A stretch of 64,000 nucleotides of DNA, taken from positions 1 to 64,000 of the forward strand of contig RIBL01000016.1 in assembly GCA_003762875.1 (NCBI GenBank), in the 5' to 3' direction. This document shows, piece after piece, positions 9,052 to 35,738 of the stretch; the stretch's first letter is position 1, and the number at the start of each line of letters is the position of its first letter. The notes below the pieces were generated by a model. It was given only the letters and a program-made list of their open reading frames with translations, ran no database searches and was not told the origin of the DNA. The stretch comes from Muribaculaceae bacterium Isolate-110 (HZI) (GTDB lineage Bacteria > Bacteroidota > Bacteroidia > Bacteroidales > Muribaculaceae). The translations under genes were made by a program, and so were the position numbers.

Positions 9052-10158
9052 TTATTTCAGCGAGATGGAATTAGCGGCATCGCGCTTCTTTTGGTTCACG
9101 ACCTCTGCATAGATCTGGGTGGTGGCCACGTTTTTATGCGTTAGCATTTTGCTGACAGTGTAGATGTCGGTGCCGTTGGTAATCAGGAGTGTAGCGTATG
9201 TGTGGCGCAATCCGTGAAAGGTAATCGTCTTCTTGATACCGGCATCTTTGAGCCATTTCTTGAACGGCTCACGGGTGTGGGCGCGACTCAGTCCTTTGAA
9301 TACCATGCCGCGACCTTGTTCGCCGCAATAAGAGAGGGCTTCATCGCTCAACGGTAATGTTGCCTGAGTCTTGGTCTTTTGGGTTCGGATACGCATACAG
9401 TAGCCGCCATCGGGTGACAGCTCGATGTTCTCCCAACGGAGTTGGAGAATGTCGCTGATGCGAAGTCCTGTCATGCAGGCGAAAAGTGATGCTCGTTTCA
9501 GAACATCAACTTTACAAGGTGTAGTTGCTAACTTCTTCACCTCCTCGATTTCGAGATAGTTGATTTTCGGTTCTTCCCAGTCGATGCGGTCGAGATAGTC
9601 ATTGACATTTTCCCGTAGCCAGCCTTCTTTGTATGCCAATTTCAACAATGCTCGGAAGGTGGACCAGTATCCGGCGGCAGAGTTGCGTGAGATTATGTTG
9701 CCCGTTTGTTTCACCCGGATTCTGAGAATGTAGGTGCGGAAGTCGTTACACAGTCCGATAGTCACGTCTTTCATCAGACATCTGCCATTACAGAAATCTT
9801 TGAAGTGCTTATATACGATTTCCCATTTCTGATATTTCTCTTTGGTCTTGCTCTCGAAGTATTCAAGGAAGTCCGACTGCTTCTTGGTGCGGTCGAGGAA
9901 CCCGAACTCCTCATTGATGATAGCCAGTTCGCGGGTGGCACGGATGCCACGGGCTTTAAGCATGATTTCCTCGTTGTAGTCAAGTTCAAACTTATCCTTA
10001 GGATTGCCGATGAGATACAGACCGAGAAACTCTCGGCGAGACATCTTTTTGATGTGCGGATTCCAGATGGGAGGGTAGTAGTCAAGATAGAGCGACAGTT
10101 TGCCGCTGCGGAGTTTTTCTTTTCGTAGGGTCACTTTGGTGATGGTTGCAGATTCCAT
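9052..10158 (-). CDS. Tyrosine site-specific integrase, element 1
   Basis: 368 aa, the usual length for Bacteroides element integrases. An N-terminal arm-binding region and a core-binding SAM-like domain (residues about 95-190) precede the catalytic domain. Catalytic residues: R233 (TGLRISD), K261, H315 and R318 (HGLRH), H341 and the nucleophile Y350 (TTQIYAEV). It probably integrates and excises element 1 at the mnmE-derived att site at 11392-11403. It is about half identical by eye to the element 2 integrase (31924-33033), with the same gene order next to the four-HTH regulator, so both probably recognise the mnmE 3' end. Confidence 0.93.
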   Translation of the reverse strand: MESATITKVTLRKEKLRSGKLSLYLDYYPPIWNPHIKKMSRREFLGLYLIGNPKDKFELDYNEEIMLKARGIRATRELAIINEEFGFLDRTKKQSDFLEYFESKTKEKYQKWEIVYKHFKDFCNGRCLMKDVTIGLCNDFRTYILRIRVKQTGNIISRNSAAGYWSTFRALLKLAYKEGWLRENVNDYLDRIDWEEPKINYLEIEEVKKLATTPCKVDVLKRASLFACMTGLRISDILQLRWENIELSPDGGYCMRIRTQKTKTQATLPLSDEALSYCGEQGRGMVFKGLSRAHTREPFKKWLKDAGIKKTITFHGLRHTYATLLITNGTDIYTVSKMLTHKNVATTQIYAEVVNQKKRDAANSISLK

Positions 10159-10226: not shown

Positions 10227-11138
10227 TTATAACTCAATCTTTGGGTTGAATAACTTGGCTAACTCTTTGGCGTTCAGTTTGACATACTTGCCGCAACGGA
10301 GTTTGGTTATCTTGTATGTTTTGACATGGTGATACAGTTGGTCACGGGTCAATGAGTATTTATCCATGGCATCAGCCACCGAAATAAACTCTACATCCTC
10401 GGCTGACTTGGCACCCTTGGCTACATCAAAGTGGTATTGGGAGTAATAGACCTTCGAACCCTCCTTGCGCTTCGGAATACCGATTTTGGAGACAAGAGAA
10501 TATATTGCCGAGAGAGTCATGCCATACTTGGACTGAATATCCTCGACAGAATACCACTCCGTAATTTCCGGATTCTCCTTTTTCGCCGAGAAAATCCGGT
10601 CGATATGGCTCTTGCTGAAATACACCTTACCACGAAGGATTGTCTTAGGCACATTGTTCTCAGCAACGACCTTGTATATCCACGAATCCTTCACTCCGAA
10701 CTTCTCACGAATTTCGGCACGGGTATAGAAATCAGATATTGACTTCGGTTTCCTTTCAGTGGATGCAGACAGATCTGTTTCTTTCGGAGTAAGAAAATTA
10801 AACATCGCCAGAATATCGGCTTTGCTGATAAGAGTCTTTCGTCCGATTCTCGTCACTTTGATTTTACCACGGTTGATGCTGTCATAAATATATGTCCGGC
10901 ACACACCGAGAAATTGCGCCGTTTCTGTCGGAGTCAAGAAATCCTTATCACGGCTTTTTCGGTCGGGATTACACTGGCTGGTTTCCTGATTGGAAAGAGC
11001 CATCTTCTTTTGCCTCATGCGCTCCTTATAGGAATGTTCCGCGCATCGCTTCGAGCAGAAACGTGTAACCGTTGTCTGAGCCATAAAACGGTTGCCACAC
11101 CACTCGCAAATTCTTTCAATTTTAATGTTGCTACTCAT
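10227..11138 (-). CDS. Zinc-motif protein with four tandem excisionase-type HTH modules, element 1
   Basis: 303 aa. The N-terminus has C11, C14, C28 and C32 (CEWC...CSKRC), a likely zinc site. Four MerR/excisionase-like HTH modules follow at about residues 67-112, 137-183, 195-240 and 251-296. Each has the pattern F/W-x-T/S-x2-E/D, a glycine or serine turn, a helix with Y, and a basic wing. This fits a combined excisionase/regulator. The element 2 homolog has the same layout; recognition helices of modules 3 and 4 are nearly identical (MTLSAIY, LTRDQL) while 1 and 2 differ. Four 10-bp-phased repeats lie just upstream (11171-11210). Confidence 0.8.
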   Translation of the reverse strand: MSSNIKIERICEWCGNRFMAQTTVTRFCSKRCAEHSYKERMRQKKMALSNQETSQCNPDRKSRDKDFLTPTETAQFLGVCRTYIYDSINRGKIKVTRIGRKTLISKADILAMFNFLTPKETDLSASTERKPKSISDFYTRAEIREKFGVKDSWIYKVVAENNVPKTILRGKVYFSKSHIDRIFSAKKENPEITEWYSVEDIQSKYGMTLSAIYSLVSKIGIPKRKEGSKVYYSQYHFDVAKGAKSAEDVEFISVADAMDKYSLTRDQLYHHVKTYKITKLRCGKYVKLNAKELAKLFNPKIEL

Positions 11139-11170
11139 TTCGTTGGTGTTTATTTCTCCTTAGTTTGTTC

Positions 11171-11210
11171 GTGCGCGTCCGTTGACGTCCGTCCACGTCC
11201 GCGAACCTCC
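11171..11210. repeat. Four 10-bp-phased repeats upstream of the element 1 regulator
   Basis: GTCC occurs at 11177, 11187 and 11197 and CTCC at 11207, each the end of a 10-bp unit beginning with G. In the first three units the shared part is CGTCC. The array starts 33 bp upstream of the regulator start codon. The equivalent array in element 2 (34081-34120) has the same period and copy number but GTCT instead of GTCC. Confidence 0.75.
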
Positions 11211-11249
11211 ACCACCTTACTGACGCTTGGGGTGAAATGAGTCGCTGTC

Positions 11250-11269
11250 GTACAAAATCCGTACAAAAT
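11250..11269. repeat. Paired GTACAAAAT repeats near the att site (element 1)
   Basis: GTACAAAAT occurs at 11250-11258 and 11261-11269 (11-bp period), with a degenerate third copy (GCATAAAA) one step on. A matching pair, TACAAAT/TACAAAA with 11-bp period, lies at the same place in element 2 (34166-34183). The position between regulator gene and att site suggests integrase arm sites or excisionase sites. Confidence 0.5.
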
Positions 11270-11315: not shown

Positions 11316-11391
11316 CTTGTAAGATTTAAGTTTTATCGTTCAGTAACAGTCAATTGCTATCAATATAACGCATTGATAATCAACTAATTAC

Positions 11392-11403
11392 TTGCCGATG
11401 CAG
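11392..11403. other. Attachment-site copy derived from the mnmE 3' end (junction of elements 1 and 2)
   Basis: TTGCCGATGCAG is identical to 34306-34317 inside mnmE. On the minus strand the copy here reads TGC ATC GGC AAG TAA, the MnmE ending CIGK-stop, whereas the live gene has AAA TAG at the last two codons. No mnmE body is attached. The simplest reading is that it is the att site left between two elements inserted in tandem at mnmE. Confidence 0.75.
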
Positions 11404-11649: not shown

Positions 11650-12078
11650 ATGGCTGATAGATTCGATGAAATAGGGACTCTTTTTCTCCAGCGGAGAAAA
11701 GAGCTTGGACTTACCCAAGAACAGTTGGGCGAGAAGGTCGGTGTGACTAAATCGGAAATTTCAAAGATTGAGAACGGCAGAGGTATCACGTTCTCGACAA
11801 TCAATAAATTGTCCGAAGCATTAGGAGTGTCTGCACATGTAGAGTTGAAACCTAAGGATTCTGTTTCATCCGATGTGATTCATTATATAGTAATGAGCCT
11901 TGGTCTGTTTGCTCGCAAATACAAATTGACAAAAAAGGAGGCTTGTAATTACCTCTCCCGTTTCAAAGGTTTGGATTTCTCAATTCGGAATTATGAAGCG
12001 GAACATCAGCTGTCGCTACAGGAGTGTGTGGAAGATATGGCTGCAATCTGTCAAAGAAATGGAGGTGCAGTGTCATGA
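11650..12078 (+). CDS. XRE-type HTH fused to a DUF3791 domain (putative antitoxin)
   Basis: 142 aa. Residues 8-65 form an XRE HTH (FLQRRKELGLTQEQLGEKVG, SEISKIENGRG, then LSEALGVSAHVELKP). Residues 75-135 match the small DUF3791 domain (IHYIVMSLGLFARKYKLTKK, then the LSRFKGLDF segment). DUF3791 proteins are normally encoded next to DUF3990 proteins, as here; fusion to a DNA-binding domain suggests an autoregulating antitoxin (inference). The stop overlaps the DUF3990 start (ATGA at 12075-12078), and GGAGG at 12061-12065 is an unusually clear ribosome site for Bacteroidetes. Confidence 0.8.
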   Translation: MADRFDEIGTLFLQRRKELGLTQEQLGEKVGVTKSEISKIENGRGITFSTINKLSEALGVSAHVELKPKDSVSSDVIHYIVMSLGLFARKYKLTKKEACNYLSRFKGLDFSIRNYEAEHQLSLQECVEDMAAICQRNGGAVS

Positions 12079-12548
12079 TACTCTACCACGGTTCAAATCA
12101 ACCGATAGCCGAAATTGATTTGTCGCAAGGCAAGAAATTCAAGGACTTTGGACAAGGATTCTATACCACCCACATCAAGGAACAGGCCGTATATTGGTCA
12201 CGTCGAATTGCTGAACGCTTTGGCGGAACACCAACTGTTACAGAATTTGAGTTTGATCTTGATGAAGCTGTAGCAGCCGGATTGAATGTAAAGGTGTTTG
12301 ATAATCCGGATAAGGAGTGGGCACTGTTTGTAATGGCAAACCGCAAGCAGGAAGGAGAACAATTCCATCACGAATACGACATAGTTATTGGGCCGGTCGC
12401 GGATGATAATATGGCTCGTCTCTTCGGACTCTATGATATGGAAATCATCGACCTTGATGCCGTTGTAGCAGGGCTGATTTATAAAGACCTAAATTCTCAG
12501 TACTTCTTTGCTACAGAAGAATCTCTCAAATACATAAAACGGATATGA
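12075..12548 (+). CDS. DUF3990 protein, ADP-ribosyltransferase-like (putative toxin)
   Basis: 157 aa from the ATG at 12075; a start at 12024 in the same frame would lie deep in the upstream gene and is rejected. It begins MILYHGSN, the conserved Y-H-G-S opening of DUF3990, a family placed with ADP-ribosyltransferase folds. GQGFYTT near residue 32 and EYDIVIGPVADD near 98 are other family blocks. It sits between two DUF3791 genes with 4-bp overlaps on both sides, the layout of a tightly coupled toxin-antitoxin module. Toxicity and target are inferred, not shown. Confidence 0.8.
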   Translation: MILYHGSNQPIAEIDLSQGKKFKDFGQGFYTTHIKEQAVYWSRRIAERFGGTPTVTEFEFDLDEAVAAGLNVKVFDNPDKEWALFVMANRKQEGEQFHHEYDIVIGPVADDNMARLFGLYDMEIIDLDAVVAGLIYKDLNSQYFFATEESLKYIKRI

Positions 12549-15027: not shown

Positions 15028-15088
15028 TAAATCGCAATTTAGAGGCGATGTCCCGTCAGCTCTACGACTACTGGTTCGTGCAGTTCGA
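15028..15088 (+). repeat. 61-bp inverted repeat, S-gene central crossover site (silent copy)
   Basis: Identical, inverted, to 18230-18290 in hsdS. It starts with the 14-bp core TAAATCGCAATTTA (15028-15041) and continues through codons for the conserved EAMSRQLYDYWFVQF segment. Inversion between the two copies would attach the silent second half at 15042-15758 to the hsdS first half in frame. Confidence 0.85.
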
Positions 15089-15767
15089 TTTCCCCGACGA
15101 GAACGGCAGACCATACAAGTCGAGCGGAGGCAAGATGGTCTGGAATGAAAAGTTGAAACGTGATATACCTGAAAGTTGGCAAGTTGTCAATTTATTCCAT
15201 GGTGTTGATATTCAGTATGGATTCCCATTCTCAACTGAGTTATTCATTGAAGAGCCAACCCTTGTTCCAGTCGTGCGTATTCGTGATATACTTAATGGAA
15301 CTACTTCAGCATATTCGAAAGAAGATGCTGATGAAAAGTACAGATTGTCAAAAGGAGATGTTGTAGTTGGCATGGACGGCAATTTCCATATGAATATATG
15401 GAGTGATGAAACGGCGTATCTTAATCAACGCTGTGTTCGATTACGGCATATAGAAGGTTGTCCTATTTCAACTTTACAGGTGTTACATGAGATAGCTCCT
15501 TATATAAAGGCTAAAGAACAGAATGCCAAAGGTTCTACGGTTGGACATCTGTCAGACAAAGACTTAAAGGCTATTTGGATTGTTAAACCGCTGACCACCA
15601 CGAAATTCAATCCCGAAATTACATTCGCTAAACTTTCAGAAAAGATAGTGGATAATCGAAATGAGATTGTAGCATTAACAAAACAGCGCGACGAGCTGTT
15701 GCCGTTGCTGATGAACGGTCAGGTATCGGTCATGCCGACAGAGGTAAATTGCGATTTAGTGGCGTAA
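15048..15767 (+). CDS. Silent hsdS cassette: second target-recognition half
   Basis: 239 aa as written, but it has no promoter or N-terminal half and its ATG is internal to the conserved spacer (MSRQLYDYWFVQ). Residues 1-40 are the central conserved region, about 45-195 a target-recognition domain different from that of hsdS, and the end repeats the C-terminal conserved block (QRDELLPLLMNGQVSV). The whole piece from 15028 to 15758 is bracketed by inverted copies of the 14-bp core. It is best read as a storage cassette that becomes part of HsdS after inversion. Confidence 0.85.
   Translation: MSRQLYDYWFVQFDFPDENGRPYKSSGGKMVWNEKLKRDIPESWQVVNLFHGVDIQYGFPFSTELFIEEPTLVPVVRIRDILNGTTSAYSKEDADEKYRLSKGDVVVGMDGNFHMNIWSDETAYLNQRCVRLRHIEGCPISTLQVLHEIAPYIKAKEQNAKGSTVGHLSDKDLKAIWIVKPLTTTKFNPEITFAKLSEKIVDNRNEIVALTKQRDELLPLLMNGQVSVMPTEVNCDLVA
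15726..15758. repeat. 33-bp inverted repeat at the C-terminal end of the silent cassette
   Basis: Identical, inverted, to 17539-17571. It encodes VMPTEVNCDL and ends with the 14-bp core in minus orientation (15745-15758). Beyond a mismatch at 15725 similarity continues through the QRDELLPLLMNGQ codons. Confidence 0.85.
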
Positions 15768-15805
15768 TGTGGGGGGTGGCCTTGCATGAGTCATCATTCT
15801 TGTAA

Positions 15806-15931
15806 TTAGTCTTTGTTCCAGTGGTTTTCACATTCTTGGCAGAAAACCATGCCTTCTTTAATCTCTCTCGAAGAGAGGGGCTGCCCGCAGCATTCGCAGA
15901 CTTTTACTCTAACAGATATTGATTTATCCAT
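15806..15931 (-). CDS. Small zinc-ribbon protein
   Basis: 41 aa from the ATG at 15931; an upstream in-frame start at 15991 is possible. Two CxxC pairs (CECCGQPL and CQECENH) 18 residues apart make a zinc ribbon. It lies within the invertible region between the silent cassette and the recombinase gene, on the opposite strand. Function unknown; it is short but the paired cysteines make chance unlikely. Confidence 0.45.
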   Translation of the reverse strand: MDKSISVRVKVCECCGQPLSSREIKEGMVFCQECENHWNKD

Positions 15932-16058
15932 CTCTTTGTATTTATCTGTTATGGTTGGCACTATTGCCTTCCTATAAGTATATAGTCCCAATCCATTAAA
16001 AAAGTGAATAGTTCGGGCAAAAAAATCGCTATCTTATTAGAAAAACTTTAATATACCC

Positions 16059-17051
16059 ATGAAAGAAAGACTAATAGATGGCGTTATTGCCAAGATGAGT
16101 GGTGGGTTGTCGCCGCAACAGCTTTTCGCTCTGCGAAGGGCACTTGATGATGAACTTGCTGAATTCGATGTAACCTCAGCCCCCAAAGGAGTTGAGAAAG
16201 CACGTAAAGCCAATGATGATTTGGCGGCACAGTTCATCTCTGCAAAGAGAATAGAGGGCTGCTCTGAGAAAACGCTTAACTACTACGAAAATACTATTCG
16301 TGCATTCCTTGATGAAACCTCAAAGGAACTGCATGATGTAACAACTAATGAAATCCGCAAGTATCTGTCGGATTTCCAAGCAAAGAGAAATTCCAGTAAG
16401 ACCACCGTTGACAACGTGCGACGTATTCTGTCGAGTTTCTTCTCTTGGTTGGAAGATGAAGACTATATTGTCAAGAGTCCGGTTAGACGTATCCACAAGG
16501 TGCGTTCTGAAACGACGGTTAAGGAAACTATCAGCGACGAGCATCTGGAGAAACTCCGTGATACTTGCACCGAAGTTCGCGACCTTGCTATGATAGACTT
16601 CTTAGTGTCAACCGGCGTTCGTGTGGGAGAATTGGTAACTCTTAATCGCAACGACATTGATTTCAATGAACGTCAGTGCGTTGTCCTTGGTAAGGGAAAT
16701 AAAGAGCGGACGGTGTATTTCAATGCAAGAGCTAAAGTGCATCTACAAAATTATCTGGTGACACGCACTGATGATAATCAGGCACTGTTCGTCTCACTTT
16801 CTGCTCCGAACAATCGACTCACCATAAGTGGAGTAGAAACGCGACTGCGACAACTCGGTAAAAAGGCCAAGATTTGCCGAATCCATCCCCACAAGTTCAG
16901 GCGCACCCTGGCAACAATGGCCATAGACAAGGGGATGCCAATTGAGCAGGTACAACGGCTTCTCGGACACTGTAAAATTGACACTACGCTCCATTATGCC
17001 ATGGTGAATCAGACGAATGTGCGTATCGCTCACCGTAAATTCTTAGGATAA
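16059..17051 (+). CDS. Tyrosine recombinase, predicted hsdS invertase
   Basis: 330 aa, XerC/D-like. A SAM-like core-binding domain spans about residues 50-145. Catalytic residues: R188 (TGVRVGEL), K213 region (GKGNKERTV), H278 and R281 (HPHKFRR), H304 (LLGHC) and Y313 (TLHYAMV). It differs from both element integrases and lacks their N-terminal arm region. It lies between the silent S pieces, inside the 15028-18290 inverted repeats, the usual position for the enzyme that inverts type I S genes in gut Bacteroidales. Sites predicted: the four TAAATCGCAATTTA cores. Confidence 0.88.
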   Translation: MKERLIDGVIAKMSGGLSPQQLFALRRALDDELAEFDVTSAPKGVEKARKANDDLAAQFISAKRIEGCSEKTLNYYENTIRAFLDETSKELHDVTTNEIRKYLSDFQAKRNSSKTTVDNVRRILSSFFSWLEDEDYIVKSPVRRIHKVRSETTVKETISDEHLEKLRDTCTEVRDLAMIDFLVSTGVRVGELVTLNRNDIDFNERQCVVLGKGNKERTVYFNARAKVHLQNYLVTRTDDNQALFVSLSAPNNRLTISGVETRLRQLGKKAKICRIHPHKFRRTLATMAIDKGMPIEQVQRLLGHCKIDTTLHYAMVNQTNVRIAHRKFLG

Positions 17052-17066
17052 TACACCGATTTTTAG

Positions 17067-17096
17067 TAACTTTGTAGTCTAAAACCGACTACAAAG
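17067..17096 (+). promoter_or_regulatory. Promoter and 10-bp dyad directly before the silent half-S gene
   Basis: TAACTTTG (17067-17074) is a good -7 box. A perfect inverted repeat, CTTTGTAGTC (17070-17079) / GACTACAAAG (17087-17096), overlaps it and ends at the base before the ATG. The dyad could be an operator or, in RNA, a hairpin hiding the start. It means this half-gene is poised to be expressed when an inversion completes it. Confidence 0.55.
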
Positions 17097-17567
17097 ATGA
17101 AAAAAGAGAAAATCGGAAATATTCTTCAAATGCAAAGAGGGTACGATTTACCTGTTTCTCAGATGAGAAATGGGCAAATACCTGTTGTCGGTTCTAATGG
17201 TGTTGTTGGTTATCACGATACTGCAAAATGTTTTACTCCAACTATAACAATCGGTAGGAGTGGAAGTGCTGGCAAAATCCACATGTACGATACTCCCACT
17301 TGGGTTCATAACACAGCGCTTTATCTTACCGATTTTAAAGGTAATAATCCCAAGTATCTTTACTATCTTCTCCGGCTTCTTCATCTTGAGACTCTATGCG
17401 GCAGTAGTGTAATACCATCTCTTAATCGCAATGTAGTGTATCCCATGGTGGTGAACTTCCATGAGAATCGCGAAGATCAAGATGCCATATCATCTATTTT
17501 ATCCAAGATTGATGAAAAAATTGCAGTTAATCATGAGATAAATCGCAATTTACCTCTGTCGGCATGA
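17097..17567 (+). CDS. Half hsdS: alternative first target-recognition domain
   Basis: 156 aa. It contains a complete first TRD (RGYDLPVSQ, GRSGSAGKIHM, SVIPSLNRN) and the start of the central helix (ILSKIDEKIAVNHEINRNL), then ends after the crossover core with PLSA. In hsdS the same point reads NREINRNL followed by EAMSRQL. Inversion of 17539-18290 would replace PLSA by EAMSRQLYDYW in frame, making a full S gene here and truncating the current one. Its last 41 bp overlap the 3' end of hsdS antisense. As it stands it could make a half-S protein, which in some systems dimerises. Confidence 0.85.
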   Translation: MKKEKIGNILQMQRGYDLPVSQMRNGQIPVVGSNGVVGYHDTAKCFTPTITIGRSGSAGKIHMYDTPTWVHNTALYLTDFKGNNPKYLYYLLRLLHLETLCGSSVIPSLNRNVVYPMVVNFHENREDQDAISSILSKIDEKIAVNHEINRNLPLSA

Positions 17568-18828
17568 CCGACACCTGACCGTTCATCAGCAACGGCAGCA
17601 GCTCGTCGCGTTGTTTTTTCAGTTTGTCAGTTTCCAACACAGATTTGAATTGTCTCTCAGCCATACTTTCAACTCTTGATAGCCATTCTCGCTGAAGCCC
17701 TTGAGGAATTTTGAGAATCGGGAATCTCATAAGATCTTCTCGTGAGACCTCCTTAAAAGTTGTTCCAGTCCCCAGTTGTTCTATTTTAGGGAGTTGTTGG
17801 CGAATATAATAAAATATGTAAAACACATCATATCCATCTTTGGGAACAAAACTCTTAAATCCTTGATTTGTACAAAGTGGAACTTCAGATATTGATAATA
17901 AGCCTATCGGGGCTCTACTTGACATAAGTAGGGAATGGGTGGGCAACATGTGTGTACTACATGAATCATATCCTTGTTGAGAAATGTTTCGTGCCCCATG
18001 ATAAACAAATTTACATTGTTGCTCAGACAAATCTTTAGGGGTTATCCAAACAATATCCCCGCCATAATTTGATTCAACGGCGGTTGATGGTGTGGCTCCA
18101 TTGTATATTTCCGCAGCATCGGATAGGTTTTCGACTACCCAATTATCGGGGATTTCACGTTTTAGTCGTTCATTCCACACCATCTTGCCGCCGCTCGACT
18201 TATACGGCTTGCCGTTCTCGTCGGGGAAGTCGAACTGCACGAACCAGTAGTCGTAGAGCTGACGGGACATCGCCTCTAAATTGCGATTTATCTCACGATT
18301 AAGTGCAATCTTTTTATCTATAGCGTAAAGGGTTGCTCCAATCCGTCGCTGTTCCTCCAATTCAGGGATGAATACGATAACATCCTTAATACGGTCAGGA
18401 GTTGTATGCCGAATCTTTGTCTGTTGAGCCGCTGCTCCTAACTGAGATTTTACAATCTTTGATGGCAGTAGGTAATAGCAAAACATTGAATCAAGCTTAT
18501 CCTCTTTACAGCGAATAAGCGCAACATCCTGACTTTGGATATATTTACCCGATTCGGGAATCATTGCAGTACTGCCAAGCAGACCAGGTGTTTGCTCTGT
18601 CAGAGGAGTTATTATATCTCCTTCATTGAGAATAAACTGGCTTTTGACAGGCCCAACAAAATAGAGATTATCTTTCGAGGTGTTTTCCTTGAAACCACCA
18701 TTTTGATAGTCAAAATGACCAAGAGTCAAGCGAATTAACTCCCCTTCCGAAGAATAAAACTCTCCAGACAGAGATGCTCCGCGACTTACGTCCAAAAGTT
18801 CACCAAGTTTGTATTTTAACAATTGCAT
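17527..18828 (-). CDS. hsdS: Type I restriction-modification specificity subunit HsdS (currently expressed version)
   Basis: 433 aa. TRD1 covers about residues 1-150, the central conserved helix 150-215 (ALNREINRNLEAMSRQLYDYWFVQ), TRD2 215-390, then the C-terminal conserved helix (KLKKQRDELLPLLMNGQ). HsdS reads the split DNA target for HsdM and HsdR. It is the last gene of the xre-hsdR-hsdM-rhuM-TM-hsdS operon, 1 bp after the TM gene. The crossover core falls at residues about 180-184 (18277-18290), and a second core at 17539-17552 covers its C-terminus. Thus TRD2 is a removable cassette. Confidence 0.93.
   Translation of the reverse strand: MQLLKYKLGELLDVSRGASLSGEFYSSEGELIRLTLGHFDYQNGGFKENTSKDNLYFVGPVKSQFILNEGDIITPLTEQTPGLLGSTAMIPESGKYIQSQDVALIRCKEDKLDSMFCYYLLPSKIVKSQLGAAAQQTKIRHTTPDRIKDVIVFIPELEEQRRIGATLYAIDKKIALNREINRNLEAMSRQLYDYWFVQFDFPDENGKPYKSSGGKMVWNERLKREIPDNWVVENLSDAAEIYNGATPSTAVESNYGGDIVWITPKDLSEQQCKFVYHGARNISQQGYDSCSTHMLPTHSLLMSSRAPIGLLSISEVPLCTNQGFKSFVPKDGYDVFYIFYYIRQQLPKIEQLGTGTTFKEVSREDLMRFPILKIPQGLQREWLSRVESMAERQFKSVLETDKLKKQRDELLPLLMNGQVSVMPTEVNCDLSHD
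17539..17571. repeat. Crossover core shared by hsdS 3' end and the half-S gene
   Basis: The 14-bp core TAAATCGCAATTTA is at 17539-17552 in plus orientation, and the 33-bp block matches 15726-15758 inverted. It is the left edge of the hsdS TRD2 cassette and the right edge of the silent first half. Confidence 0.85.
18230..18290 (-). repeat. 61-bp inverted repeat, S-gene central crossover site (active copy)
   Basis: Perfect inverted partner of 15028-15088. The core is at 18277-18290 in minus orientation, in hsdS codons for INRNL. Beyond 18230 similarity continues with scattered mismatches through the SSGGKMVWNE codons. Confidence 0.85.
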
Positions 18829-31923: not shown

Positions 31924-33033
31924 CTATTTGAGCGTGATGGCGTTGGAGGCTTCGCGTTTCTTCTCTCCGACCACTTCGGCATAGATCTGAGTGGTTCTGA
32001 TACTACGGTGAGTAAGCATCTTTGACACGACATAGACATCAATACCCAATGAGATAAGGATGGTAGCGAATGAATGGCGTAGGCAGTGGAATGACAACTT
32101 CTTTGTTATCCCTGCTGACTTCACCCAGTTCTTGAAAGCGTGTTGAGCCATAGAGCGTTTGAAGCCCTTGAAAACAAGTCCGTCACCTCGTTCACCACAA
32201 TATTGCAGTGCTTCTTCACTGATAGGGAGTGTAGCCTCTGTTTCTGTTTTCTCAGTGCAGAGTCTGATGCAGTGACCTCCGTCGGGACTGCGCTCGATAT
32301 TCTCCCATTTTAGTTGAAGAAGGTCACTGAGACGTAAGCCGGTAAATAGGCCGAACATAGAGGCTCGCTTCAATACAGGAATGTCGCATTGAGAGTTTGC
32401 GAGAATTTTCATCTCCTCCAATGTGATATACTCTTTCTTGACCTCCTGCCATTTGAGTCCATCAAGAAAATCATTGACATTTTCAAGCAGAAGTTTCTCC
32501 TTGTATGCCATCTTCAACAAGCAACGGAATGTTGACCAATACCCGGCGGCAGAGTTCGCCGACAGTGGTATCTTCTTTTCCGGGTGGCGCAGTGAGTGGG
32601 ATATGAGAAGATAGTCACGGAAGTCCTCGCACAGGCTCACAGTAACATCGCTGAAAGTGCATTGACCTCCAGTGAAGTTCTTGAAATGGAGATACACACT
32701 CATCCATTTGTCATACTTGCTCTTGGCTTTCTTCTCGAAGTAGGCGAGAAAATCCTGCTTCTGCTTTGTCCTGTCGAGAAAACCAAACTGTTCATTTATC
32801 AGACTCTGATAACGGATGCAACGTATGGCCTCGGCCTTTTCTTCCATTTCCTGATTGAAACGGCGTTGCATTTCGTTGGTGGGGTTCGCAAAGATGACAA
32901 TACCGAGAGTCTCACGGCGTGTCATCTTGTTGGTGTGCGGATTGCGTATCGCCGGGTAATAGTCAAGATACAGCGATAGCTTTCCTCCGGCGTATGGACG
33001 CTTGCGGAGGAATACTTTGGTACATGTATTCAT
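31924..33033 (-). CDS. Tyrosine site-specific integrase, element 2
   Basis: 369 aa from the ATG at 33033 (MNTCTKVFLRKRP), which matches the start of the element 1 integrase; a longer frame to 33090 adds 19 unmatched residues. Catalytic residues: R234 (TGLRLSD), K262 region (TEKTET), H316 and R319 (HCLRH), H342 and Y351 (TTQIYAEV). It is next to the four-HTH regulator and 1.2 kb from mnmE. It probably recognises the mnmE 3' end (34306-34317), giving the copy at 11392-11403 as the other end of the element. Confidence 0.93.
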   Translation of the reverse strand: MNTCTKVFLRKRPYAGGKLSLYLDYYPAIRNPHTNKMTRRETLGIVIFANPTNEMQRRFNQEMEEKAEAIRCIRYQSLINEQFGFLDRTKQKQDFLAYFEKKAKSKYDKWMSVYLHFKNFTGGQCTFSDVTVSLCEDFRDYLLISHSLRHPEKKIPLSANSAAGYWSTFRCLLKMAYKEKLLLENVNDFLDGLKWQEVKKEYITLEEMKILANSQCDIPVLKRASMFGLFTGLRLSDLLQLKWENIERSPDGGHCIRLCTEKTETEATLPISEEALQYCGERGDGLVFKGFKRSMAQHAFKNWVKSAGITKKLSFHCLRHSFATILISLGIDVYVVSKMLTHRSIRTTQIYAEVVGEKKREASNAITLK

Positions 33034-33136
33034 CAGTGTGGGGGGATTAAAATTTGACACAAAGTAAGCATGAGAATCGAGGGAGAACAATAGAGTCCGG
33101 ATGCTCTCCGATGTATCTCCAAATCGTCTCCATTGG

Positions 33137-34036
33137 CTATATCTCCGGGGATTTCAAGAGATTATCCAATTCACGCCGGAGAATATGAGTGTACTTACCC
33201 TTCTTCACACGGGTAATGTTGTGATACTTCAGATAGTGGTGTAGCTGGTCCCGTGTCAGCCCATATTTCTCCATCGCTTCCGGATATGTGTAATACTCCG
33301 GTTCTTTCGGTTCAACCGCACCTTTGGCTAAATCGAAATGATATTTGGAGTAGAATGTAGATGCACCGACTTTCTTCTTGGGGATGGCCTCCTTTGATGC
33401 CAGACAGTATATTGCCGATAATGTCATCCCATATCGCGCCTGAATCTCAGCTGCGGTGTACCACTCAGATATTTCATCACTGGGTTGTTGTTTTGCGAAG
33501 TAAGCGTCAACATGCTTCCGGCTCCAAAGGGTCTTGCCTCTTTGCTGAGTCTTCGGCCACTTTTCTCTCTTGGCAATCTCATACAACCCTGAATTGGATA
33601 TGCCATACTTTTCCTGCACCTCCTTCGATGTGTAGAATTCCGTGATGGGTTCTGACTTTTTCTTTGGACGCTTCAGATATTTATGTCCATTCTCAAAAAG
33701 GCTGTCAACATCCTTTCTGCGGATGAGAGTTTTGCCTTTGAATTGTACTGTCGTTATTGCATTGTCTGCAAAATAACGATAGATGGTTGCTCGGCTTATG
33801 CCTAACAACTGACATAGTTGGGTAGGAGAAAGAAATTCCAGTTTCTCAATCTCCGTTACTTCATCGGTGGCTTTTACATATTCAATCTTAAAAGCCTCAA
33901 TTTTCTGTTGTCTCTTTCGCTCCTTATAGGCGAGTCCGGAGCATCGGTGGCTGCAATACTCCGTCGATGTTTTTCGTGCGACAAACTCTTTGCCGCACCA
34001 TCCGCATCTTTTGATGATTTCAATATTACTGCTCAT
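33137..34036 (-). CDS. Zinc-motif protein with four tandem excisionase-type HTH modules, element 2
   Basis: 299 aa. N-terminal cysteines (CGWC near residue 11, then CSHRC near 28) form a likely zinc site. Four HTH modules follow, starting FLSPTQLCQLLG, FYTSKEVQEKYG, WYTAAEIQARYG and YYTYPEAMEKYG, each ending in a basic wing. It is homologous along its length to the element 1 regulator; modules 3 and 4 have the same recognition helices while 1 and 2 differ. Likely roles are excisionase and control of the integrase (inference). A 12-bp tandem repeat and a four-unit phased array lie directly upstream. Confidence 0.8.
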   Translation of the reverse strand: MSSNIEIIKRCGWCGKEFVARKTSTEYCSHRCSGLAYKERKRQQKIEAFKIEYVKATDEVTEIEKLEFLSPTQLCQLLGISRATIYRYFADNAITTVQFKGKTLIRRKDVDSLFENGHKYLKRPKKKSEPITEFYTSKEVQEKYGISNSGLYEIAKREKWPKTQQRGKTLWSRKHVDAYFAKQQPSDEISEWYTAAEIQARYGMTLSAIYCLASKEAIPKKKVGASTFYSKYHFDLAKGAVEPKEPEYYTYPEAMEKYGLTRDQLHHYLKYHNITRVKKGKYTHILRRELDNLLKSPEI

Positions 34037-34080: not shown

Positions 34081-34120
34081 GTGTCTCATCGCGTCTCACT
34101 GTGTCTCATCGGGTCTCAAA
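34081..34120. repeat. Four 10-bp-phased repeats upstream of the element 2 regulator
   Basis: GTCTCA occurs at 34083, 34093, 34103 and 34113, exactly 10 bp apart. Each is preceded by one or two G-rich bases. The array lies 45-84 bp upstream of the regulator start, like the GTCC array of element 1. Confidence 0.8.
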
Positions 34121-34165
34121 AGTCCAAGACCTTTCTGAGGTTAAAAGTAAGACTGACCGACTTGA

Positions 34166-34183
34166 TACAAATCGGGTACAAAA
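34166..34183. repeat. Paired TACAAA repeats near attL (element 2)
   Basis: TACAAAT (34166-34172) and TACAAAA (34177-34183) with 11-bp period. Their counterpart in element 1 is at 11250-11269. Probably integrase arm or excisionase sites. Confidence 0.45.
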
Positions 34184-34301: not shown

Positions 34302-35738
34302 CTATTTGCCGATGCAGAAATTCTTGAAGATGGTGTTGAGTATTTCTGAGGAGGGGATTTCTCCGGTGATGGTGGCGAGATGGGCGAGGGTTTCGCGGAG
34401 GTGTTGTGCTGCAAGGTCGGTCTCAAGACCGTGTTGCAGACCGTCAATAAGCGGGTGAAGAGAGTCGAGGGCTTGACGCAAGGCTTCAGCCTGACGGAGA
34501 TTGGTTATCATTATGTCAGAACGTTCGCCAGTGCTGTTGTCGTTCTTGGCTGCAATGTTGTGGATGGCTTTTTTTAAATTCTCTATTCCGAGTCCTTGTG
34601 TGGCAGACAAAGGTATGACTGTTATTTTTTCGCTCAAACTGTCGACATTGTTTGAAATAATCAGGCCAAATCCATCAATATAGTCTGTTACTGACTCTTG
34701 TCGGTTGAGCAGGTCTATTTTGTTAAGTCCGATAATGATGTCGGTGTCCAAGCCTCTTATCTCCAATGGTAGAAGAGATGAAAGGGATTGTCTTTCTGCA
34801 GTGGTTGCGTCGGCCAATGCGATAATTATTCTTGCCTGGCTTAGAGCTTTGCGGGAGCGTTCGATGCCAATGCGTTCTATCGGGTCGAGTGTGTCGCGCA
34901 GACCGGCGGTGTCGATAAACCTAAACAGGTAGTCGCCTATTTCAAGGGTTTCCTCTATAGTGTCGCGCGTAGTGCCGTGAATGTCGCTCACGATGGCACG
35001 GTCTTCATCGAGCAAGGCGTTAAGTAGAGAGGATTTCCCGGCGTTGGTCGGGCCGATTATTGCTACGGGAATGCCTTCTTTGATGGCATTCCCGCGTCTG
35101 AAGGAGCCGTGTAGCCGTTGCAGTTCGCCGCGTATTTCCATTGCTGTGTCAATCAGTTGGGTGCGGTCAGCAAACTCGACGTCTTCCTCGGAAAAATCAA
35201 GTTCGAGTTCAAGCAGTACAGCCAGTTGCAGCAGACGTTCTCTCAGAATGGCGAGCCGTTGAGAGATGCCGCCTTTCATCTGGCGCATGGCTATGCGATG
35301 GGCGGCACGCGATGTCGAGGCTATCACGTCAGCCACGCCTTCGGCCTGAGCCAGATCCATACGTCCGTTCATTACGGCCCGGCGGGTATATTCACCTGGG
35401 GAGGCGAGTCGACAGCCGTTGCGCAGCAGTAGAGCCAGGGCTTCGCGTTGAATCCATTTCGACCCATGTACCGACAGTTCAACGATGTCCTCGCCTGTAT
35501 ATGACCGAGGTCCGCGGAATATTGTCGCCACACATTGATCTATCGGTTCACCGGCTTTTTCTCCCAGCTCGCCCAAATGGACTGTATGGCTGTTTGCATC
35601 AGTGAGATTACGGCCTTTCCATAGACTGTTCACTATGGTAATGGCATCGGGTCCGCTTACTCTTATCACAGCGATGCCACCGATCCCGGAGGGCGTTGAA
35701 ATGGCGCATATAGTGTCGTTGGTGTTATTTATAATCAT
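34302..35738 (-). CDS. mnmE: tRNA modification GTPase MnmE
   Basis: 478 aa, full length. It acts with MnmG to build the 5-carboxymethylaminomethyl group on the wobble uridine of certain tRNAs. The N-terminal tetrahydrofolate-binding domain covers 1-120, then a helical domain with an inserted G domain: G1 GPTNAGKS (229-236), G2 GTTRDT (255-260), G3 DTAG (276-279), then NKID. The conserved C-terminal CIGK (475-478) is intact. It is the chromosomal anchor for the mobile elements: its 3' end is the att site. Confidence 0.97.
   Translation of the reverse strand: MIINNTNDTICAISTPSGIGGIAVIRVSGPDAITIVNSLWKGRNLTDANSHTVHLGELGEKAGEPIDQCVATIFRGPRSYTGEDIVELSVHGSKWIQREALALLLRNGCRLASPGEYTRRAVMNGRMDLAQAEGVADVIASTSRAAHRIAMRQMKGGISQRLAILRERLLQLAVLLELELDFSEEDVEFADRTQLIDTAMEIRGELQRLHGSFRRGNAIKEGIPVAIIGPTNAGKSSLLNALLDEDRAIVSDIHGTTRDTIEETLEIGDYLFRFIDTAGLRDTLDPIERIGIERSRKALSQARIIIALADATTAERQSLSSLLPLEIRGLDTDIIIGLNKIDLLNRQESVTDYIDGFGLIISNNVDSLSEKITVIPLSATQGLGIENLKKAIHNIAAKNDNSTGERSDIMITNLRQAEALRQALDSLHPLIDGLQHGLETDLAAQHLRETLAHLATITGEIPSSEILNTIFKNFCIGK
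34306..34317. other. Attachment site inside the mnmE 3' end (attL of element 2)
   Basis: TTGCCGATGCAG covers the last codons of mnmE (Phe-Cys-Ile-Gly-Lys region on the minus strand). The identical 12 bp recur at 11392-11403. Insertion here leaves the MnmE protein intact. Confidence 0.75.

Follow-up and report, generated by a model that had tools for sequence, protein, structure and literature searches.

A two-residue code in the first module of a multi-module, excisionase-like regulator tracks a helically phased repeat array in integrated elements of Bacteroidales

Background

When a protein with four tandem helix-turn-helix (HTH) modules is encoded directly beside four short DNA repeats spaced by one helical turn, does each module read one repeat, or is the array recognized in some other manner? 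This question is raised by one end of an integrated element in the 64,000-nt stretch of DNA analyzed here (the window, meaning that whole stretch), for which an initial annotation had proposed that a single regulator molecule lies along its array like beads on a string. Apl, lambda Xis, P2 Cox and Pukovnik Xis, recombination directionality factors (RDFs) of the winged-HTH (wHTH) type, are small proteins with one module; unlike these, the family to which the present regulator belongs carries two to eight modules together with a zinc ribbon. In the following, natural variation among relatives of the regulator and of its array is used to ask which part of the protein accompanies which part of the DNA.

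Results

Two related elements in tandem

The window contains two related integrated elements, arranged in tandem at the 3' end of an ORF (34302-35738, minus strand) that we take, by recognition of its sequence, to be mnmE, a gene also known as trmE. Both elements present the same order beside their copy of the att core, namely the regulator gene followed by a tyrosine integrase gene (Table 1). The core TTGCCGATGCAG occurs twice in the window, and at least two matches were also obtained in 3 of 100 shuffled windows when one mismatch was allowed. Contigs of other genomes likewise carry several relatives each, examples being G097 contig 7, G117 contig 2 and G215 contig 1.

Table 1. Positions of features of the two elements in the window
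Feature	Position	Strand	Remarks
Element 1 tyrosine integrase	9052-10158	-	Arm-DNA-bind_5, SAM_5 and Phage_integrase family matches
Element 1 regulator, putative RDF	10227-11138	-	303 aa; zinc ribbon and four HTH_17-type wHTH modules
Module 4 (aa 251-297)	10248-10388	-	Little tracking of repeats (best column z 5.1)
Module 3 (aa 195-241)	10416-10556	-	Little tracking of repeats (highest z of any column 5.8; module 1, 14.7)
Module 2 (aa 137-183)	10590-10730	-	No tracking of repeats
Module 1 (aa 67-113)	10800-10940	-	Recognition-helix specificity residues X=Thr82 and Z=Asp86, by covariation
N-terminal zinc ribbon and following helix	10989-11138	-	Cys11, Cys14, Cys28, Cys32; predicted secondary structure
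Element 1 array, four 10-bp units	11165-11204	-	Cores CGGAC, CGGAC, CGGAC, CGAAC on minus strand; proposed sites of four module-1 protomers
Constant flank	11207-11215	-	GTGGTGGAG on minus strand; same in L009 and L017 despite different arrays
Element 1 TTTTGTACG direct repeats, 11 bp apart	11249-11257, 11260-11268	-	May be arm-type sites of the integrase; weak covariation
att end of element 1	11388-11403	-	Copy of last codons of mnmE, TGCATCGGCAAGTAA on minus strand; family-wide motif
att core TTGCCGATGCAG, element 1	11392-11403	-	Inside the att end
Element 2 tyrosine integrase	31924-33090	-	ORF; recognized by likeness to element 1 integrase
Element 2 regulator, paralogue	33137-34036	-	40% identical to element 1 regulator; ribbon and four HTH_17-like modules
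Element 2 array, four 10-bp units	34081-34120	-	Core GAGAC, unlike element 1
Element 2 GTACAAA-type repeats, 11 bp apart	34164-34171, 34175-34182	-	Sequence
att core TTGCCGATGCAG, second copy	34306-34317	+	At 3' end of ORF 34302-35738 (minus strand)

A regulator with four winged-HTH modules

The four HTH modules first read from the regulator sequence were borne out by profiles and by modelling. Pfam HTH_17 scores 86.5 bits on the protein (cut-off 27), with three stretches passing individually; a module profile built in this analysis finds four modules; and an AlphaFold2 model (16 sequences, mean pLDDT 70.5, pTM 0.28) displays four separate wHTH-like folds in a row after the N-terminal ribbon and a long helix, the relative placement of the modules not being predicted by this model in view of the low pTM. 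The four cysteines of the ribbon are invariant among 16 sequences and presumably hold zinc. Searches with the model by Foldseek returned Pukovnik Xis (probability 1.00, E 0.07-0.1), chains of the BldC-DNA complex (probability 0.99-1.00, E 0.24-0.5) and TraN (probability 0.99, E 0.004-0.009), while the top three matches by E-value, to a ligase at about 20 A rmsd, were disregarded as unrelated. The profile of module 1 also matches Pukovnik Xis (E 2.8e-8), and BldC is absent from its 16 sequence matches. By its HTH_17 score, module-1 profile and Foldseek matches, the regulator thus possesses the Xis/HTH_17-type winged HTH expected of an RDF. Two close relatives (L005, L008) contain an internal TAG stop and are probably decayed copies; L034 and L037 have the same open frames as these two, the records, under their names, being apparently identical.

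Register of the arrays

Aligned to relatives and read on the coding (minus) strand, the units of element 1 are TCGCGGACGT GGACGGACGT CAACGGACGC GCACGAACAA, the array ending 26 bp before the start codon of the regulator. Repeats had initially been placed at 11177, 11187, 11197 and 11207; GTCC or CTCC is present at each of these positions, but the register was off by one unit. The CTCC at 11207-11210, counted earlier as the fourth repeat, belongs to the flank that stays constant while arrays differ, and the true fourth unit, containing GTTC at 11167, lies one unit nearer the gene. The spacing of one helical turn stood, both at this array and in relatives: its 10-bp score is 14.3, whereas none of 60 shuffled upstream sequences from homologous loci exceeded 6.2, and three GGACG units at 10-bp steps with up to two mismatches, expected 0.05 times in the window, gave three matches, all overlapping at the array. 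Element 2 has the units TTTGAGACCC GATGAGACAC AGTGAGACGC GATGAGACAC. Pattern searches of the window with mismatches yielded no second array for either element, returning only overlapping registers of those already described. In the genome, the two-unit pattern has one further match without mismatch (C41), and 25 matches with at most one mismatch, against 9 for the reversed control.

Repeat number does not follow module number

Relatives were found in 101 of 397 genomes of the family (E up to 1e-20) and, with the element 2 protein as query, in 55 of 392 genomes of the order. The set comprised the loci L001-L031; 129 fetched stretches, chosen so as to omit fragments at contig ends and some near-duplicates, were added, and later a further 20 stretches (one a duplicate) and 31 titled loci, 15 of whose titles name Muribaculaceae or genera belonging to it. 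Complete proteins among the relatives contain 2, 3, 4, 7 or 8 modules by the module profile. The 220 bp upstream were scored for periodicity in 88 non-redundant loci whose genes are complete: the best period was 10 in 81, 11 in four, 7 in two and 9 in one, with a median period-10 score of 13.8 (shuffled maximum 6.2, 60 sequences). One two-module homologue (L178) has an array of about five TGAAACATGTT-like units with a period of 11 bp (score 18.6, against 3.2 for 10 bp). No clear array was seen upstream in L105, L153 and L158.

If each module occupied one site, numbers of modules and repeats should rise together among homologues, a check that the initial annotation had itself named. Repeats could be counted at a score of at least 8 in 74 of the 88 loci, the uncounted 14 comprising four two-module, four three-module and six four-module loci. 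Two-module proteins were accompanied by four (2 loci) or five units (3 loci) and three-module proteins by four (1 locus) or five (7 loci); arrays of 3, 4, 5 and 6 units were found at 4, 41, 9 and 1 four-module loci, respectively; five units accompanied proteins with seven (3 loci) and eight modules (1 locus), and two loci at which one module was found had four and six. Roughly four or five units are therefore present whatever the number of modules (Spearman -0.22, p 0.05, n=74), and the equality of modules and sites that marks one-module-one-site readers does not hold across these 74 of 88 loci. By eye, five loci (L125, L127, L163, L126, L128) show two or three extra units of similar core tens of bp upstream of the proximal array.

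All four units track module 1

Covariation was examined in 135 four-module loci with enough upstream sequence, representing 80 distinct arrays. Removal of arrays scoring below 15 (13 of the 80) and of exact duplicates left 94, from which 45 representatives less than 85% identical to each other were drawn. Unit positions are numbered 0-9 with AC at positions 6-7, and four loci (L068, L069, L073 and L124, of which L068 and L124 are among the representatives) were re-phased by hand by 2 bp, with the flank as guide. The strongest association of any module column was that of module 1 column 15 (hereafter X) with bases 4-5 (z 14.7), followed by module 1 column 19 (Z) with base 3 (z 12.0), each over 45 representatives and 60 shuffles. 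Other columns of module 1 (26, 29, 3 and 13) gave z values of 8-9, and the best columns of modules 2, 3 and 4 gave 4.2, 5.8 and 5.1, the values for modules 3 and 4 concerning base 3. Element 1 has Thr82 at column 15 and Asp86 at column 19.

The association of X and Z with the bases is present in every one of the four units. Nor is it confined to close relatives: among loci with modules 2-4 less than 40% identical, pairs sharing the column-19 residue agreed at base 3 with a frequency of 0.91 (51 pairs), against 0.38 for pairs that differ in it (216 pairs). Bases were also predicted across clades, using only loci with modules 2-4 less than 70% identical and a matching residue, which were available for 156 or 164 of 180 units. 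Module 1 correctly predicted base 3 in 154/156 units, base 4 in 129/164 and base 5 in 123/164, where the maxima from 100 shuffles of module 1 were 0.68, 0.55 and 0.52, respectively; modules 2-4, as predictors, achieved 0.29-0.66 (at most 0.66, 0.45 and 0.34 for bases 3, 4 and 5). Instead of each site tracking a different module, all four units thus track module 1. Modules 2-4 were also considered as readers of the sequences flanking the array (-40 to +35 around it), but their best corrected values (at most 0.59, against 0.82 and 0.76 for the module-1 code) revealed no clear pattern, and this candidate was rejected.

Within arrays, pairs of units agree at base 3 with a frequency of 0.98, at bases 4 and 5 with 0.83 and 0.76, at bases 8 and 9 with 0.46 and 0.50, and at bases 0 and 1 with 0.26 and 0.24; the agreement of the AC core (0.96-1.00) is partly by construction, AC having been favoured by the array caller. 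Each repeat unit appears, from this pattern, to be under selection. Position 8 presents a separate feature of four-module arrays, in that unit 3 has G after AC (0.86) and unit 4 has A (0.90) regardless of core; the module-1 code does not explain this difference, and the preference of the array caller for A or G at position 8 is the same for all units.

A two-residue code

Written as X..Z against the three bases preceding AC, the commonest readings in a 70-row table, which also has exceptions, are A..R = GAG, A..N = TAG, S..R = GGG, R..N = TGC, R..R = GGC or GAC, M..R = GGT or GAT, T..R = GGT or GGA, T..D = CGG (element 1), Q..K = TTG or TTT, P..G = TTT, K..N = TAC and D..K = TAT. Two correspondences are nearly without exception in the representatives: where Z is Arg, base 3 is G in 60/60 units (15 loci), as opposed to 0/120 with other residues, and where X is Arg or Lys, base 5 is C in 35/36 units (9 loci), as opposed to 1/144. 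Automatic phasing without a score filter (53 loci) gave 57/60 against 4/152 for the first and 27/36 against 3/176 for the second, and removal of the hand-phased loci (51 loci) gave 56/56 against 4/148 and 27/28 against 3/176. The relationships are less sharp in 25 loci with other module numbers (34/44 against 3/56, and 16/32 against 6/68), a set including two loci with one module found; one of these (L061) is a piece of a close four-module relative (96%), and slipped through the identity filter owing to its truncated module. The extra upstream units seen by eye in L163 and L126 (7 and 8 modules) also fit their module-1 residues, A..R = GAG.

Covariation within these loci hence shows two residues of the module-1 recognition helix, four apart, that would specify three adjacent bases in all four units, and the regulator very probably recognizes the array, as had been supposed at the outset. 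A plausible structural counterpart is available in BldC. In the BldC-DNA structure, Arg30 contacts the guanine in a 5'-YpG step, and guanines at bp 7, 8 and 17 are within reach of Lys26 (PMC5859096); counted on the printed 20-mer, bp 8 and 17 are two positions away from the Arg30 pair, the same offset that base 5 has from base 3 here. In the present arrays, units matched to Z=Arg have a pyrimidine before the G in 59/60 cases, so that the pairing of YpG with an Arg at i+4, characteristic of BldC-like binders, is recovered by covariation. From their spacing and neighbours, X and Z would correspond to Lys26 and Arg30.

Apparent exchange of array and module 1 among related elements

Element 1 (L001) and two relatives (L009, L017) provide the clearest natural swaps. 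Among these three, nucleotide identity is 93-95% in the DNA upstream of the array and 84-91% in modules 2-4, but falls to 40-45% in the array, 46-65% in module 1 and 67-69% over the zinc ribbon with its linker; the linkers between modules are at 67-86%, and all four repeats differ. In the clearest relatives, comparison of the DNA thus shows array, zinc ribbon and module 1 changing together, as would a single specificity cassette. Two of the five pairs compared in DNA give no clean contrast of this kind: L090/L136 are 60% identical upstream, 52% in module 1 and 64-77% in modules 2-4, and L085/L082 are 62% identical in the array, 77% in module 1 and 83-84% in modules 2-4. More generally, pairs with modules 2-4 at least 75% identical had a unit similarity of 0.91-0.97 when module 1 was at least 80% identical (159 pairs) and of 0.21-0.24 when it was below 60% (276 pairs). 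The spacer bases of the units are correlated with module-1 identity as well (r 0.38-0.53), since array and module 1 would move as one block; contact is therefore indicated by the residue code across unrelated clades, and not by this bulk correlation.

We also asked whether elements residing in the same genome are selected to differ in specificity, and found no support for this. Most such pairs do differ, but so do pairs between genomes: the same (X,Z) was common to 5/53 within-genome pairs and 548/7206 pairs between genomes, four of the five sharing pairs being identical or near-identical copies, and one pair (L025/L209) having been removed by hand as one place fetched twice (54 to 53). The genome G097, with five elements and five specificities, is an anecdote in this regard.

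Position of the array in the att region

The motif of the mnmE tail lies upstream in 149/167 loci with enough upstream sequence (not de-duplicated; 0/174 in the control), at a median of 256 bp from the start codon, and in 138/145 loci with more than 700 nt downstream the integrase gene is next, on the same strand (from 177 loci, not de-duplicated), as expected for an RDF encoded beside its tyrosine integrase. Among the representatives, 4/45 lack the motif, and in 34 of the remaining 41 the mnmE stop and the array are separated by 182 bp, give or take 2 bp. The distance from the array end to the start codon ranges over 17-49 bp in 41 loci, only nine of them being within 2 bp of the median. Spacing that is fixed to the att end but variable to the start codon favours excision control, which had been named as one of two functions suggested by the location of the array, and supports its assignment to the att region. 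Sites in direct repeat about one turn apart, at a fixed place near att, are a hallmark of RDFs; those of the present family are deduced from covariation.

A second pair of repeats, TTGTAC-like and 11 bp apart, recurs near -61 and -50 from the array, at least two copies being present in 28/45 loci by a strict pattern. The best ten covarying pairs for these repeats (27 representatives) involve five residues of the integrase arm domain (10, 18, 20, 37 and 40, with residue 10 in the top pair), integrase residues 216, 276, 283 and 299, and one residue in module 4. Our guess is that they are arm-type sites of the integrase, for which this covariation is suggestive at most.

Discussion

Proposed role of the array and competing explanations

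We consider it likely that the array is the site of the regulator at the integrase-bearing end of the element, and that the reader of each unit is the module 1 of a different protein copy, about four protomers taking part, one per turn. The four 10-bp units would accordingly be filled by four aligned protomers, in the manner of BldC, Apl and Xis, and the resulting filament may shape the att DNA and promote integrase-mediated excision, the regulator acting as an RDF. The observed spacing fits such a filament, which would need a constant distance to att. Modules 2-4, and the additional modules of relatives with up to eight, have by the same covariation no role in array specificity; among the close relatives examined, modules 2-4 also vary less than module 1. 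We would guess at contacts with a second stretch of DNA, with the integrase or with a neighbouring protomer.

The initial proposal, in which one molecule lies along the array with one module on each repeat, draws on the fact that modules and units both number four in each of the two elements and in 41/55 counted four-module loci, and on the tandem wHTH motifs that TraN of plasmid pIP501 applies to adjacent half-sites (PMC10877727), TraN being also among the Foldseek matches. It is nonetheless very improbable: repeat number does not rise with module number; as predictors of the units, modules 2, 3 and 4 do not exceed the highest value obtained from 100 shuffles of module 1, and module 1 itself predicts every unit; and in the natural swaps the complete array switches while modules 2-4 stay 84-91% identical in DNA. 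A reading still harder to credit is that binding involves a single unit, slippage having kept its passive copies similar. Expansion and homogenization do occur in tandem arrays, but slippage would homogenize all positions of a unit, whereas bases 0 and 1 are alike at chance frequency within arrays that agree almost completely at base 3.

The array could, alternatively, serve solely as an operator through which the regulator represses its own operon, its position near att being incidental. Proximity of the array to the start codon is in keeping with this, as is the fact that RDFs such as Apl also regulate transcription (PMC7498355). We regard it as unlikely, given that the distance kept constant is the one to att (34/41) and not that to the start codon (9/41), and that the TTGTAC-like pair occupies a near-fixed place between array and att in 28/45 loci. 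Own-operon repression may, however, accompany the excision role that we favour, since Apl doubles as a repressor and RdfS binds promoters too.

Relation to known systems

Phage 186 Apl has five direct repeats at att, spaced 10-11 bp apart and presumably bound by one monomer each, near integrase sites (PMC7498355). The present arrays resemble those of Apl and other wHTH RDFs (lambda Xis, P2 Cox, Pukovnik Xis) in the placing of direct repeats, at steps of about one turn, close to att and to integrase sites, but Apl binds with low sequence specificity (PMC7498355), in contrast to the sharp and divergent two-residue specificity found here. BldC, a MerR-like protein of Streptomyces, places protomers head-to-tail on direct repeats, with base contacts by Lys26 and Arg30 (PMC5859096); contact residues four apart and the pairing of Arg with YpG would be shared by X and Z. 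Unlike the present regulator, BldC has 68 residues, binds 9-bp repeats in whiI with AT-rich minor-groove readout, and is a developmental regulator acting away from att. RdfS of ICEMlSym R7A, an HTH_17-group RDF from an integrative and conjugative element, forms a head-to-tail oligomer and binds attP and promoters (PMC11963761). It belongs to the same HTH_17 group as our regulator but has a single wHTH and an extra N-terminal helix, and its authors were unable to find a consensus motif (PMC11963761), whereas the repeat motif of the present family is clear. TraN carries two wHTH motifs per chain, with base contacts that include the pairs N24/Q28 and H82/R86, four residues apart (PMC10877727), and so resembles the regulator both in having more than one wHTH per chain and in its residue pairs; unlike TraN, whose two motifs sit on halves of one site, modules 2-4 here set the specificity of no repeat. 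SGI1-type islands are inserted at the 3' end of trmE (PMC8409611), the same target gene end as that of the elements in the window, but they are gammaproteobacterial, and the likeness considered here is that of target site.

By analogy with these systems, the regulator would work much as known RDFs and BldC do, and what is new would lie in the number of modules, the sharp two-residue specificity and the exchange of cassettes. Among the titles and opening lines of abstracts listed from the open-licence PMC literature, we found no multi-module regulator family of this kind, no such array and no such code. Apl and RdfS, as described, have low or undefined sequence preference (PMC7498355, PMC11963761), whereas the present family offers a readable protein-DNA code, exposed by dozens of natural changes of specificity on a shared scaffold and att site, together with the cassette in the clearest cases. 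A broader picture, which we put forward tentatively and with considerable doubt, is that of a large Bacteroidales family of multi-module excisionases in which module 1 carries the two-residue code (X for bases 4-5, Z for base 3), an exchanged cassette of array, ribbon and module 1 keeps excision control separate among elements sharing the mnmE att site, and the extra modules (one to seven) hold a second DNA segment, the filament becoming a multivalent bridge within the intasome. The family allows the evolution of excisionase specificity, and cross-excision between elements at one att site, to be asked about directly, and it raises the question of why up to seven further modules are retained in a protein whose array is read by just one. 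A set of excisionases whose sites were distinct and could be predicted would, in addition, be a useful resource in Bacteroides genetics.

Neighbouring loci

Two further loci in the window were noted in passing. Beside the att end, at 11650-12548, a protein with HTH_3 and DUF3791 matches in the family scan is followed by an overlapping ORF (12024-12548); the pair, of which the scan covered the first protein, looks like a regulatory or toxin-antitoxin-like two-gene unit. The region at 15028-18828 resembles, by eye, a type I restriction locus containing hsdS-like pieces in opposite orientation, which have inverted repeats in common (208 nt at 81%, 79 nt at 96% and 45 nt at 89% identity) and enclose a tyrosine recombinase gene (16059-17051); it is possibly a phase-variable hsdS inversion system.
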